Below, in pieces: positions 920 to 5,067 of a DNA stretch of 64,000 nucleotides (position 1 is its first letter; every line of letters starts with the position of its first letter). The notes under the pieces were generated by a model that saw only the letters and a program-made list of their open reading frames with translations, did no database searches and was not told the DNA's origin. Position numbers and translations under genes: made by a program. The DNA is taken from the NCBI RefSeq assembly GCF_022695985.1, contig NZ_JAAPBF010000011.1, forward strand, positions 1 to 64,000, in the 5' to 3' direction. Source of the stretch: Streptomyces sp. NP-1717 (lineage in GTDB: Bacteria > Actinomycetota > Actinomycetes > Streptomycetales > Streptomycetaceae).

Positions 920-1666
920 ATGCGCGCACTGCGAATTCTGCTGATCTTCGTCGTGATCCTCGGCGGGCTGTTCATCGCCGTCGACCGGGCCGCGGTGTAC
1001 TTCGCCGAGACCGAGGCGGCGAGCAAGATCAGGAGCAGCCAGGGCCTCGGCCGTGAGCCCGAGGTCTCGATCAAGGGCTTCCCCTTCCTCACCCAGGTGG
1101 CGAACTCGAAGCTGGACGAGATCGAGGTCAGCGTCGGCGGGATAACCGCCACCACCGAGGGCCGCGAGGTCGAGGTGACCGAGGTGAAGGCCGAACTGCG
1201 GGACGTGAAGGTGAACAGCACCTTCTCGTCGGCGGTCGCGGGCAGCGCCGAGGGCTCGGCGCTGATCTCGTACGAGGACCTCACCAAGTCCGCGCCCAAG
1301 GGAGCGACGGTCGGCTACGCCGGGCCGGAGCGGGCGGCGAAGGGGCAGGTCAAGGTCTCGGGTCCGCTGGGTGATCTGGTCGAGGGCGCGGGCATCGACG
1401 TGCCCGACGCCTTCAAGGGTCTGCTGCGGGACGACTTCACGGCGTACAGCACCGTCTCGCTGGACGGCGGGGACAAGGTCCGGCTGCGCGCGGAGGACCT
1501 GCCGAGCCTGCCGGTGCCGGGTGTCGAGGACAAGCTGAAGGACGTCGTCGACTACGACCTGACGATCGACGGACTGCCGTCGACGATCAAGCTCGACAAG
1601 GTCACGGCGACCCAGGACGGTCTGCGCTTCTCCGGCACGGGCCAGGACGTGGACCTCACCGGCTGA
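920..1666 (+). CDS. LmeA-family phospholipid-binding protein (DUF2993)
   Basis: 248 residues. Residues 1-22 form one hydrophobic signal/anchor segment after MRALR, and the rest is a soluble beta-rich domain typical of DUF2993. The family includes mycobacterial LmeA, a periplasmic phospholipid-binding protein linked to mannan elongation and envelope upkeep. Family signs are the GFPFLTQ segment (about residues 53-59), the repeated VE-V-E-V strands (about 90-100) and the closing GLRFSGTG-DVDLTG. A GGGG-purine stretch sits just before ATG 920. The protein probably faces the outside of the membrane; its ligand is unknown. Confidence 0.8.
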   Translation: MRALRILLIFVVILGGLFIAVDRAAVYFAETEAASKIRSSQGLGREPEVSIKGFPFLTQVANSKLDEIEVSVGGITATTEGREVEVTEVKAELRDVKVNSTFSSAVAGSAEGSALISYEDLTKSAPKGATVGYAGPERAAKGQVKVSGPLGDLVEGAGIDVPDAFKGLLRDDFTAYSTVSLDGGDKVRLRAEDLPSLPVPGVEDKLKDVVDYDLTIDGLPSTIKLDKVTATQDGLRFSGTGQDVDLTG

Positions 1667-1783
1667 CGCGCGCGGGCCCCACCACCGGCGAGCGGCCGGG
1701 CGGGCAGGCGGCCGGGCTTCAGGCGCCGCGGGCTTCCCCGGCGGGCAACCGGGCAGAAGGGCGTATTCCACCCTCCCCGCCGT

Positions 1784-1903
1784 ATCGTGAGACGCGGATG
1801 TCCATCCCGTAGATGGAACAGCGGTACGAGAGGCCCGGGGGCCAGGTCCGGGCCGCCGGGAACGCCCACTGGTCCCACATCTCGGACGATCCCGTCTCAC
1901 GAT
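1784..1903. promoter_or_regulatory. Inverted pair of ATCGTGAGACG motifs before the sulfur leader
   Basis: The 11-mer ATCGTGAGACG occurs at 1784-1794, and its exact reverse complement CGTCTCACGAT at 1893-1903. Similarity extends past the core: both copies continue with a G, an AT step and GTCC. The pair lies 50-170 bp upstream of the leader peptide in an otherwise gene-free stretch (1667-1951). It looks like two binding sites of one regulator in opposite orientation. The regulator is unknown; control of sulfur genes is inferred from position only. Confidence 0.5.
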
Positions 1904-1951
1904 TCGACACACCGGTGACATCGCACCGTATCCGTCCCTACGATCGGACGC

Positions 1952-2059
1952 ATGCAGTGCTTCATCAGCGGTCTCCAGCAGCGGGGACAGGCGAACCTCA
2001 CGAAGCGGCGGGCAGTCGACCTGTGCCGCGTCGCCGCCATGCTCTGTCGCACCGTCTGA
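1952..2059 (+). CDS. Short leader peptide (35 aa) upstream of the sulfurtransferase gene
   Basis: ATG-initiated ORF of 35 codons ending in TGA. It encodes MQCFISGLQQ followed by a basic C-terminal half, LTKRRAVDLCRVAAMLCRTV. The RR-x-VDL-x-R...LCR pattern is what I recall for actinobacterial putative leader peptides found before sulfur and cysteine genes, where translation of Cys codons attenuates downstream expression. It has three Cys codons, two of them near the stop. The gap to sseA (145 bp) holds two possible RNA hairpins: GGACGCGTCC just after the stop, and GGCCCT (2091-2096) pairing with AGGGCC (2108-2113). Attenuation is inferred. Confidence 0.65.
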   Translation: MQCFISGLQQRGQANLTKRRAVDLCRVAAMLCRTV

Positions 2060-2204
2060 GCGGGACGCGTCCGCCCCGCCACCTCTCTCCGGCCCTTCGA
2101 CCACGTCAGGGCCACCCCGTGCCGTACGCAGCCCGCCGCGCCCCCGTGCCCGGAAGGCGCCGCCGCCCGCACCACCCGCCGCACACTGCCCCGGAGGAGA
2201 ACAC

Positions 2205-3044
2205 ATGAGCCGCAGCGACGTCCTGGTAGACGCCGACTGGGTCGAGGCCCACATCGACGACCCGAAGGTCGTCATCGTCGAGGTCGACGAGGACACCTCG
2301 GCGTACGAGAAGAACCACATCCGTAACGCCGTGCGCATCGACTGGAAGCAGGACCTCCAGGACCCGGTGCGCCGCGACTTCGTCGACCAGGAGGGCTTCG
2401 AGAAGCTCCTGTCCGCGAAGGGCATCGGCAACGACGACCTCGTGATCCTCTACGGCGGCAACAACAACTGGTTCGCGTCCTACGCCTACTGGTACTTCAA
2501 GCTCTACGGCCACGAGGGCGTCAAGCTCCTCGACGGCGGACGCAAGAAGTGGGAGCTGGACTCGCGCGACCTGGTCGACGCGGTGCCCGAGCGCGCGGCC
2601 ACGCAGTACAAGGCCAAGGCCCAGGACACGTCCATCCGCGCCTTCCGTGACGACGTCGTCGCCGCGATCGGCAGCCTGAACCTGGTCGACGTCCGCTCGC
2701 CCGACGAGTTCAGCGGCAAGCTGCTCGCCCCGGCGCACCTCCCGCAGGAGCAGTCGCAGCGCCCCGGCCACGTGCCGAGCGCCCGCAACATCCCGTGGTC
2801 GAAGAACGCCAACGACGACGGCACCTTCAAGTCGGACGACGAGCTCAAGGCCCTCTACGAGGAGGAGCAGGTCGACCTGGCGAAGGACACCATCGCCTAC
2901 TGCCGCATCGGTGAGCGCTCCGCGCTCACCTGGTTCGTGCTGCACGAGCTGCTCGGCCAGGAGAACGTCAAGAACTACGACGGCTCGTGGACCGAGTACG
3001 GCTCCCTCGTCGGCGTGCCGATCGAACTCGGCCCCGCCAAGTAG
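2205..3044 (+). CDS. sseA: Thiosulfate sulfurtransferase (rhodanese)
   Basis: 279 residues in two rhodanese domains: an inactive N-terminal half (about 5-125) and a catalytic half (about 145-275). The active-site loop is CRIGERS, with the persulfide-forming Cys at 233. The family moves sulfane sulfur from thiosulfate to cyanide or thiol acceptors in the cytoplasm. GGAGGAG lies 7 bp before ATG 2205. The gene follows the Cys-containing leader ORF and is 60 bp upstream of sseC, an order also known for cysA2/sseC in mycobacteria. A role in sulfur supply is therefore likely; the physiological acceptor is not visible. Confidence 0.93.
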   Translation: MSRSDVLVDADWVEAHIDDPKVVIVEVDEDTSAYEKNHIRNAVRIDWKQDLQDPVRRDFVDQEGFEKLLSAKGIGNDDLVILYGGNNNWFASYAYWYFKLYGHEGVKLLDGGRKKWELDSRDLVDAVPERAATQYKAKAQDTSIRAFRDDVVAAIGSLNLVDVRSPDEFSGKLLAPAHLPQEQSQRPGHVPSARNIPWSKNANDDGTFKSDDELKALYEEEQVDLAKDTIAYCRIGERSALTWFVLHELLGQENVKNYDGSWTEYGSLVGVPIELGPAK

Positions 3045-3104
3045 TCCAGCCCGCGCGACACCGTCCCGCGAGACCACCTGCCTGACCCGGAGGACAGATC
3101 CCAT

Positions 3105-3392
3105 ATGTGCGGAGCGAAGGCCGGCGGCCCGGACGCCTCGTCGATCAAGCCCGGTGAGACCACCATCCAGGGTTCCGTGACCCGTGACGGCGAGCCCGTC
3201 ACCGGTTACGTACGCCTGCTGGACTCGACCGGAGAATTCACCGCGGAGGTTCCGACCTCGGCGACCGGACAGTTCCGCTTCTACGCGGCCGAGGGCACGT
3301 GGACCGTGCGCGCGCTCGTACCGGGCGGCACGGCGGACCGTACGGTCGTCGCGCAGACCGGTGGGCTGGCCGAGGTGGCCATCGCGGTCTGA
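3105..3392 (+). CDS. sseC: DUF1416 / SseC-like protein
   Basis: 95 residues beginning MCGAKAGGPD. The core, with VRLLDSTGEFTAEVPTSATG and then FRFYAAEGTWTVRAL, closely resembles mycobacterial SseC as I remember it. The sequence looks like a small all-beta carboxypeptidase-regulatory-like fold. There is one Cys at residue 2. GGAGGA precedes ATG 3105. It is 60 bp after sseA and almost certainly co-transcribed. Conserved pairing with rhodanese suggests a job in sulfur-carrier metabolism, but no biochemical role is established from sequence. Confidence 0.85.
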   Translation: MCGAKAGGPDASSIKPGETTIQGSVTRDGEPVTGYVRLLDSTGEFTAEVPTSATGQFRFYAAEGTWTVRALVPGGTADRTVVAQTGGLAEVAIAV

Positions 3393-3523
3393 GTCCGGTT
3401 CGCGGCCGTACGGCCGCTGCCGGGCCGAACGCGGGACATGATCGGCCGGAGGGCCGCACCCCAGGGGGTTGGACGCTTCCTGAGACGGGGTGCGGTCCTC
3501 CGTGCCGTCGTTAAGCTCGATGT

Positions 3524-3790
3524 ATGTACACGCGACGCCGTCGCCGTTACTTCGTGCTGATGGGCGGATGCATCGCCCTGTTCGTCAGCGCCTGGGCGTT
3601 CGTGCGCCTGTGGTCGGTGCCGGTGGCGATCGGCATGTGCGTGGTGGCCATGGTCGTCCCGCCGGTCGCGGCGATGATCGCGAACGCGCGCGGACCGGAC
3701 GACCGCTGGTGGGACGACCCGTCGGGCGACCCGAAGTCGGACGAGTGGTGGGACGAACTGGACGGCAAGAAGAAGCCGCCGCCGAAATGA
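3524..3790 (+). CDS. DUF3099 membrane protein
   Basis: 88 residues: basic N-terminus (YTRRRRRY), two hydrophobic segments (about 10-27 and 32-52), then an acidic, tryptophan-rich tail (DRWWDDPSGDP, DEWWDEL) ending in lysines and prolines. This is the actinobacterial DUF3099 layout. The orientation is probably N-in, C-in by the positive-inside rule. Function unknown. It stands alone, 130 bp after sseC, and is convergent with the DsrE gene. Confidence 0.8.
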   Translation: MYTRRRRRYFVLMGGCIALFVSAWAFVRLWSVPVAIGMCVVAMVVPPVAAMIANARGPDDRWWDDPSGDPKSDEWWDELDGKKKPPPK

Positions 3791-3823
3791 CGCCGCGCGG
3801 GCCCGGGCAGCCGGCGCGGGCCG

Positions 3824-4186
3824 TCAGTACACGAGCGCCTGCGCGTCGTCCGCCATCGCCTCGCTGACGAAGACCTGCGCACCCGCGATCCGTACGCCCT
3901 CCAGCACGTCCTCCTCCGAGATCTCGCGCCGCGCCGCGCACTGCGTACAGAGGGTGATCCGGCCCGCCGACTGGATCGACTCGATCAGATCCGGCAGCGG
4001 CGCGGCGTGCGGCAGCTCGAACCCGGCGGCCCGGCCCGGCAGGGCGAACCACGCCGACTCCCCGGTCAGCCACAGGGAGACCTCCACACCACTGGCCACG
4101 GCGACCGCCGCCACGGTGAACGCCTGGGAGCAGCGCTCGGGGGCGTCGGCGCCTGCGGTTACCTTGATCACGAGCTTCTTCGCCAT
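3824..4186 (-). CDS. DsrE-family sulfur-relay-like protein
   Basis: 120 residues. The start chosen is MAKKLVIKVTAGAD, which begins the first beta strand of the DsrE/TusD-like fold; the frame is open further upstream but that part does not look coding. Cysteines are at 19, 80 and 83, the last two as C-TQ-C in the strand TLCTQC, where DsrE-type proteins can carry sulfur. Family members act in sulfur relay or as small cytoplasmic oxidoreductase partners. The nearby sseA/sseC genes make a thiol/sulfur role plausible, though not proven. Confidence 0.8.
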   Translation of the reverse strand: MAKKLVIKVTAGADAPERCSQAFTVAAVAVASGVEVSLWLTGESAWFALPGRAAGFELPHAAPLPDLIESIQSAGRITLCTQCAARREISEEDVLEGVRIAGAQVFVSEAMADDAQALVY

Positions 4187-4329
4187 GTCCCGAACTGTAA
4201 TGCGCGCCCGTACAACCCCGTTGACGCGCGGCGCCCGGCCGGTCGCACCTCGCAGAGAACGGGCCGGTCCCCACCCATTACGCTGGGGACCGGCCACTCA
4301 CCGCCCCGACGCTCTCCGAGGAGCACCCC

Positions 4330-4431
4330 GTGCTTGAGAACTTCTTCTCCGCCCTGCTCGCCCTGATCGCGGTGGCGATCCTGGCGTTCACCGTGCTGGT
4401 CGTGAAGAAGCTCTACCAGGGCCAGAACTGA
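4330..4431 (+). CDS. 33-residue single-pass membrane peptide
   Basis: GTG start with GAGGAG 8-9 bp upstream. The product MLENFFSALL continues through one hydrophobic helix (about 6-25) and ends KKLYQGQN. The good ribosome site, clean single-helix layout and short gap (63 bp) to the next gene support a real small gene. Such peptides often modulate a larger membrane complex. The partner is unknown. Confidence 0.6.
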   Translation: MLENFFSALLALIAVAILAFTVLVVKKLYQGQN

Positions 4432-4494
4432 CCGGGGCCGGTCCCCGGTCCTCCCACCCGACCACTCCCATCCCTACAGATCGCCTGAGCTGCC

Positions 4495-5067
4495 ATGATC
4501 GAGATCCCGTCCGACCTGAACCCGGGCCTTGTCCCGCTCGCCTTCCTTCTCGGTGACTGGGAGGGCGTGGGTGTCTTCGACTTCCCCGGTGAGGAGAAGG
4601 CCAACTTCGGCCAGGAAGTCTCCTTCAGCCACGACGGCCGGGACTTCATCGAGTACACCTCGCACACCTGGGCCCTGGGCTCCGACGGCGAGAAGATCCG
4701 CCCCATCGAGTCCGAGTCCGGCTACTGGCGCATCGACCAGGACCGCAAGGTCGAGGTCGTCATGGTGCGTGACCAGGGCATCGTGGAGATCTGGTACGGG
4801 GAGCTGGCCGACCAGAAGCCGCAGATCGACCTCGTCACGGACGCGGTCGCGCGTACGGCGTCCGCCGGCCCGTACAACGGCGGCAAGCGGCTCTACGGCT
4901 ATGTGAAGAGCGATCTGATGTGGGTCGGCGAGAAGTCCACCCCCGAGGTCCCGCTGCGCGCGTACATGTCGGCGCACCTGAAGAAGGTCGTCACGCCGGA
5001 GCAGGTCGCGGCCTGGGCGAAGGACCTGGGGGATCTGCCGGACGACGGCATCGCGTTCTTCAAGTAG
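4495..5067 (+). CDS. Nitrobindin-like / FABP-family heme-binding protein
   Basis: 190 residues predicted to form a ten-stranded beta barrel. The family signature G-x-W-x-G-x-G appears as GDWEGVGV (20-27), and a conserved His sits in SAHLKKV near the C-terminus, where nitrobindins bind ferric heme. Relatives scavenge NO or isomerise peroxynitrite to nitrate in the cytoplasm. The gene lies directly before the Fur-family regulator nur (55 bp). That fits a metal/oxidative-stress neighbourhood, although co-regulation is only inferred. Confidence 0.85.
   Translation: MIEIPSDLNPGLVPLAFLLGDWEGVGVFDFPGEEKANFGQEVSFSHDGRDFIEYTSHTWALGSDGEKIRPIESESGYWRIDQDRKVEVVMVRDQGIVEIWYGELADQKPQIDLVTDAVARTASAGPYNGGKRLYGYVKSDLMWVGEKSTPEVPLRAYMSAHLKKVVTPEQVAAWAKDLGDLPDDGIAFFK

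Follow-up and report, generated by a model that had tools for sequence, protein, structure and literature searches.

The genes sseA and sseC of Streptomyces sp. NP-1717 are preceded by a short open reading frame with cysteine codons, which raises the question whether their expression follows the supply of cysteine and, if so, which part of the reading frame would sense it. The locus was analysed within a window of 64,000 nucleotides, the whole stretch of DNA under study. The reading frame (1952-2059, forward strand, as all features below unless stated otherwise) comprises 35 codons plus stop and is translated into MQCFISGLQQRGQANLTKRRAVDLCRVAAMLCRTV. Its stop codon is separated by 145 nt from the ATG (2205) of sseA (2205-3044), which encodes a two-domain rhodanese-type sulfurtransferase (PF00581 in two stretches, 1.6e-32). 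The gene of an sseC-type DUF1416 protein is located at 3105-3392 (PF07210, 4.8e-36). A DsrE-family sulfur-relay-like gene (PF02635) lies near sseA-sseC on the minus strand (3824-4189).

Family and layout of the leader peptide

The peptide was assigned by comparison to two leader families. It reached 28.7 bits (E 6.8e-7) with NF042934 (cis_reg_atten, 'putative leader peptide'; cut-off 27), and 43.5 bits (E 1.8e-11) with NF042933 (leader_Ms5788A), below the 45-bit cut-off of the latter. A six-frame search of the own 8.03-Mb genome with NF042933 gave 7 matches (E <= 10), the best of which was the window leader (E 7.2e-10). Because of this top rank and the score above the NF042934 cut-off, the leader pattern is not due to chance, and the 35-codon leader with RR-x-VDL-x-R...LCR proposed in the initial annotation was confirmed. 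As NF042933 calls for, the window leader stands before a rhodanese-type sulfurtransferase gene.

With a threshold of E 0.001, NF042933 found a match in 58 of 61 related genomes, own genome included, and the match exceeded the cut-off in 15 of the 61. Within the own genus, 36 of 37 genomes had a match, the sole miss being an assembly that is 79% complete. The sseA gene was present at all 58 loci defined by the best match per genome. Upstream of sseA, 54 of them have a leader with the strict KRRAVDLCR sequence, and L016, L068 and L069 have variant leaders; at the last, L070, a family match is present and the pattern search found no leader before sseA. Conservation in other Streptomyces sseA leaders had been set beforehand as the check on which the reading frame could fail, and it did not fail. 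A scan of a genome collection, made with nothing but SseA, gave a leader at each of the 80 named loci kept of 577 relatives, nearly all Streptomyces and some of them the same strains as genomes of the G-labelled set; the leader of the eightieth, L107, is a variant with Ile for Val. A class sample gave matches in 107 of 148 genomes. NF042934 matched in 5 of 90 sampled genomes, all of the same class as the host of the window, and at E 1e-4 in none of the 82 genomes sampled outside that class within the phylum.

The window leader contains three Cys codons, TGC at 1958-1960, TGC at 2024-2026 and TGT at 2045-2047. All three had been counted in the initial annotation, and two of them are conserved. 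The first lies in an N-terminal extension of approximately nine codons (1955-1981) and has no counterpart in the usual Streptomyces leader peptide, which is MKRQADLTKRRAVDLCRVAAMLCRTF-like and 26 aa long; extensions of similar size occur in a minority of leaders, e.g. at L050, L054 and L126. The other two belong to the conserved core KRRAVDLCRVAAMLC (2003-2047). The Cys codon two positions after the Asp of VDL (D+2, 2024-2026) is TGC in 147, TGT in 12 and another codon in 2 of 161 sseA leaders. The terminal Cys codon is located at D+9 (2045-2047).

What is conserved in the peptide is, by sequence comparison, its layout rather than the number of Cys. In a wider set of 116 leaders, defined as the family matches reaching the last profile position among the matches listed, Asp at -9 and Arg at -6 from the terminal Cys were present without exception. 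If D+9 is the stall codon, conserved residues at a fixed distance, as expected for nascent-chain arrest, are thus given. From the core onward, 149 of 161 sseA leaders contain 2 or 3 Cys: the Streptomyces type ends in MLC (two Cys), and many other class members end in CLC (three Cys with D+2). Ends with runs of Cys (AGCCCCC...) were found at L014, L164 and L166, all in one family. These data suggest a design in which two or three Cys codons are usual and of which the poly-Cys run, the hallmark in published work, is one form.

The same counts bear on plain attenuation of the mycobacterial kind, by which any Cys codons would be enough to delay the ribosome, the peptide sequence and the UGU spelling being incidental. 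Such attenuation is reported for poly-Cys leaders (Canestrari et al. 2020), and the three poly-Cys loci above would suit it, but it does not account for the low number of Cys, for the invariant Arg and Asp-to-Cys spacing, or for one Cys codon being invariantly UGU with the others mostly UGC. It is regarded as unlikely for the family.

It is very improbable that the peptide is a small functional protein instead of a cis-acting leader. Its strongly conserved amino-acid sequence would favour a protein, but most of this conservation lies at or before the terminal Cys. In addition, tail and N-terminus differ in length among copies, and the copies stand before different sulfur genes. Other leaders of the own genome precede genes for an SsuA-like sulfonate-binding protein, a nitrite/sulfite reductase, ThiS plus cysteine synthase (CysM), cysteine dioxygenase plus rhodanese, an aldo/keto reductase and a dicarboxylate-type symporter; no gene was assigned behind the seventh, L012. 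The window leader is a member of a set of probable cysteine sensors that is widespread in actinobacteria.

Some of these loci have peculiarities. The leader before cysteine dioxygenase and rhodanese (L008, own genome, C441; VHMDLVRYAGCVC) has TGT for both Cys of its CxC motif. It does not fit simple induction by starvation, since the induction of a cysteine-degrading enzyme by shortage would make little sense. The leader before the sodium:dicarboxylate-type symporter (L011, own genome, C224) has three Cys codons, and the symporter may import cystine or another sulfur compound. In several lineages (L014, L020, L038) leader and sseA are approximately 500-650 nt apart, with longer gaps at L068, L165 and others. 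A DUF4395 gene is located between leader and sseA at L014, L020 and L038 and would be the first controlled gene there.

The terminal cysteine codon

In all 161 sseA leaders, TGT encodes the terminal Cys, which follows the Asp of VDL at a distance of nine residues. Leader L169, with Q before RRA, is outside the pattern of this count and enters the wider set as L222. All 116 leaders of the wider set, among the matches listed, have TGT at this position as well; their other Cys codons are 114 TGC and 21 TGT. When both sets were pooled and made non-redundant over 48 nt of DNA, terminal TGT was found in 149 of 149 leaders before various genes, again among the matches listed; these are kin by descent and do not represent 149 independent events. 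Within the same 149 stretches, the other Cys are encoded by TGC 121 times and by TGT 15 times (15/136).

The rule held in every further group of leaders. Terminal TGT was present in 60 of 60 leaders collected after the rule had been noticed (among the matches listed). All 7 other own-genome leaders have it too, as do all 13 rows obtained from a further 12 loci, of which L079 contributed none. Of 20 weaker leaders, the 14 with Cys at D+9 all use TGT. The remaining six, which were chosen as partial matches ending at profile position 17 or 18, have AGC, AGC, GGC, AGT, TGA and TAG there. In a sub-type at L305, L306, L307 and L308 (RRHIDLLRVCSA(I/L)(S, G or stop)), Cys is absent from D+9 and one TGC is located at D+5.

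TGC is the usual Cys codon in these G+C-rich loci. A set of 17 own-genome open reading frames, chosen by the authors and checked for their family in part, contained 23 TGC and 2 TGT (2/25). A larger count gave 63 TGC and 20 TGT with a loose filter for reading frames, which probably overstates TGT and still leaves it in the minority. Locus G+C was 65% or more at 140 and 55% or more at 148 of the 149 loci. For every one of the remaining 15 codon positions in the 149 leaders, the commonest residue is spelled by at least two codons. The Ala codon of RRAVDL (2012-2014 in the window) is the rare GCA in 136 of 161 sseA leaders; with this frequency it was rejected as an invariant rule, being weaker than the UGU rule.

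The codons that flank TGT vary widely, so that the codon itself and not a surrounding nucleotide motif seems to be under selection. A triplet fixed at the nucleotide level could also be kept for a reason outside decoding, i.e. contact of a protein or RNA with the triplet, or a frameshift site. This is improbable: the flanking codons are free to vary, and the six leaders without Cys at D+9 keep neither UGU nor, except for one AGT, the final U. Frameshifting at UGU into sseA was rejected as not conserved, since a frame shifted after UGU stays open and enters sseA in phase at no more than 32 (+1) and 18 (-1) of 127 loci.

At candidate loci located by a pattern search, which covered 6 of 8 genomes, ARAGORN predicted tRNA-Cys with anticodon GCA, with one copy each in five genomes of the genus and two copies in G054. 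UGU is read by tRNA-Cys(GCA) via a G-U wobble and should feel a shortage more than UGC. No statement of the UGU rule was found in the searched literature at the level of passages, and an earlier mention is possible in studies of mycobacterial leaders. As far as these sequences go, what is new here is that one synonymous codon is fixed wherever the terminal Cys is present.

Promoter, hairpins and spacer

A -10 element, TACGAT (1939-1944), ends 7 nt before the leader ATG and is preceded by the -35 element TGACA (1916-1920). Among 130 sseA leaders with an ATG start, TANNNT was found 6-8 nt before the ATG in 123, exactly 7 nt in 116, and all 123 have TGACA 17-18 nt further up. In control windows taken further upstream, the hexamer occupied the same slot in 161 of 44,882 cases (0.36%); a smaller control for the -10 element gave 0 of 660. 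Its place immediately downstream of a conserved promoter makes the leader ATG the probable 5' end of a leaderless mRNA.

Both candidate hairpins of the initial annotation were recovered downstream of the leader. H1 (2060-2079) directly follows the stop codon. Stems of at least 5 pairs that start 0-3 nt after the leader stop were present in 74 of 104 Streptomyces-type loci versus 29% of shuffles, and the arms change together among species (GCGGGA/TCCCGT, GCGGAAG/CTTCCGC, GCGGAGGC/GCCTCCGC). H2 (GGCCCT..AGGGCC, 2091-2113) was identified by reading, and similar hairpins were seen by eye in relatives. A consensus fold of the whole leader-to-sseA region with MAFFT and RNAalifold is not claimed, as spacer lengths differ and the alignment was poor. 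For the same reason RNAalifold gave almost no energy on 39 nt around H1, and anchored stems were therefore compared to shuffles instead. An Rfam search returned no match up to E 1 within 1600-4500.

The U-run of an intrinsic terminator, which a trp-type attenuator would have, is absent from 2060-2204 by reading. The spacer (2060-2190) is C-rich, with a C over G skew of 0.32, and might load Rho. Its skew averaged 0.28 in 127 loci versus 0.04 (sd 0.15, maximum 0.38) in 27 control upstream regions of the window. Rho-dependent attenuation of transcription would have this spacer load Rho once the ribosome leaves the leader, with a stalled ribosome or H1 blocking it. A C-rich, G-poor spacer and the missing U-run agree with such a step, which was raised for mycobacterial cys leaders (Seliverstov 2005, PMC1262725, in the part available). 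C skew alone is weak evidence, however, given a control region at 0.38. It is also not obvious that a ribosome stalled in the leader would cover the spacer, and the strong Shine-Dalgarno site permits control of initiation too. Rho-dependent attenuation is considered rather unlikely.

The Shine-Dalgarno site of sseA, GGAGGAG (2193-2199), was read from the sequence, and sites of this type were also read in the inspected Streptomyces-type loci. In folding predictions of the free RNA, the site pairs partly with the leader 3' end. No conserved partner sequestering it was found by folding of 105 loci. Pairing of GGGCAGT in the leader with ACTGCCC just before the site was rejected: the prediction exceeded 3 pairs at no more than 6-10 of 105 loci, varying with the state, and at none with the ribosome at D+2, and by reading the ACTGCCC partner is absent in several species with no compensation.

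Accessibility of the Shine-Dalgarno site was calculated for successive positions of a ribosome footprint on the leader, using a random draw of 45 short-spacer loci. Its mean was approximately 0.20 early in the leader, 0.41 with the A site at D+8, 0.37 at D+9 and 0.30 at the stop codon, where the footprint caused the loss of H1. The difference between D+9 and stop was 0.059 +/- 0.018 versus 0.008 +/- 0.006 with shuffled spacers (40 loci), and the gain over free RNA fell from 0.097 to 0.052 with shuffled spacers (40 loci). In an earlier folding of 105 loci, accessibility relative to the stop state rose by more than 0.05 in 51, fell by more than 0.05 in 7 and differed by 0.05 or less in 47. H1 forms in the free RNA too, and thus H1 alone does not separate the states. 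These predictions weakly support a stall that raises sseA expression; the calculated effect on the site is small, which counts against the proposed RNA step. The folding likewise lends weak support to the 'translation-coupled' control of the initial annotation.

Proposed control of sseA-sseC

A sensor of Cys-tRNA that consists of the single codon UGU 2045-2047, assisted by the nascent chain, with a stall that raises sseA-sseC expression, is considered the likely mode of action. The ribosome would translate the leader from the first codon of a leaderless mRNA, and under shortage of Cys-tRNA it would wait at one fixed codon. UGU 2045-2047 was taken as this codon because no other Cys is held strictly to one position (nine residues after Asp, six after Arg) and to one spelling. 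In this state the conserved R(R)xVDLxR segment would be inside the exit tunnel, where it may reinforce the stall. The stalled ribosome would leave H1 free to form and would cover the leader 3' end, which could otherwise pair with the Shine-Dalgarno site of sseA; a ribosome at the stop codon would melt H1. Expression of sseA-sseC would be raised by the stall mainly through translation of sseA. Sensing by a single codon is unusual, and the several adjacent Cys codons of the mycobacterial model count against a UGU sensor. In arrest peptides of the TnaC type, one sensed codon stands at a fixed distance from conserved upstream residues. The window leader differs from these in that the expected signal is shortage of cysteine and not excess, and in that its arrest is predicted.

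By sequence, the window peptide corresponds in Streptomyces to the Ms5788A leader of mycobacteria, a uORF that precedes cysA2/Msmeg_5788, a sulfurtransferase gene of the sseA kind, and shows ribosome occupancy in M. smegmatis (Shell 2015, PMC4633059, in the part available). The initial annotation had read the reading frame as a Cys leader in an unexpected place. The leader is real, conserved and of this kind, but with Ms5788A before cysA2 its position before sseA-sseC is not unexpected: elements of this kind are known already, best of all before sulfurtransferase genes, and the present one is not a first. The Ms5788A family (NF042933) and the window share the kind of operon and a leaderless start, predicted in the window, and the LTKRRAVDLCR core is common to the window and the poly-Cys leaders L014 and L166. 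Unlike Ms5788A and the mycobacterial poly-Cys attenuators with their run of adjacent Cys, the window core has Cys only at 2024 and 2045; poly-Cys leaders have seven or eight Cys codons versus two conserved ones in the window leader. With NF042934 the window shares the RxxVDLxR-x5-C layout and UGU at the Cys, but this is a general family before various genes, and its model states no mechanism.

In 2005, leader peptides with runs of Cys were described in Mycobacterium and P. acnes before the cys operons, with Rho suggested (PMC1262725), and cysteine-responsive attenuation was later demonstrated (Canestrari et al. 2020, doi 10.1111/mmi.14498). The cysS uORF of Rhodobacterales (uORFC-8-2; PMC8632094) resembles the window in having conserved Cys codons before a cysteine-related gene. 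Its Cys codons are in tandem and followed by an intrinsic terminator, and UGC dominates, so that a fixed UGU is not general to Cys uORFs. The accessible portions of a reannotation of S. lividans list eight leader peptides and describe none as Cys-dependent (PMC8079986).

In S. coelicolor, SCO4164-SCO4165 were induced 8-10 fold alongside sulfate-to-cysteine genes in a redox-stress experiment; SCO4164 is annotated there as cysA, thiosulfate sulfurtransferase, and SCO4165 as an adjacent hypothetical gene (PMC4991794, in excerpt). From annotation and neighbourhood, we infer that the pair is orthologous to sseA-sseC. Binding of NdgR at SCO4164-SCO4165 has been reported (PMC4340878), and SCO4164 shows a transient peak that is absent in an afsS mutant and common to other sulfate assimilation genes (PMC2267785), both according to the portions available. 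The searched literature, as far as its passages were accessible, contained no test of Cys-dependent control of sseA-sseC in Streptomyces. On the sequence features described above, such control is plausible.

More tentatively, and as a possibility that falls short of being probable, the leaders may form a class-wide family that joins a fixed nascent chain to a step specific for one synonymous codon. UGU would be required and UGC would fail, as wobble reading or a sulfur-dependent modification of tRNA-Cys would set the stall, and the family would run the whole sulfur/cysteine regulon with no protein regulator. The rule is sharp and can be tested, since of all core codons only one is fixed to its synonym, at a place where UGC would be the usual Cys codon. 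It indicates where the stall codon would lie in all members, including those annotated merely as 'putative leader peptide', and offers a direct way to ask whether bacteria tune the sensing of amino acids by the choice of synonymous codons.
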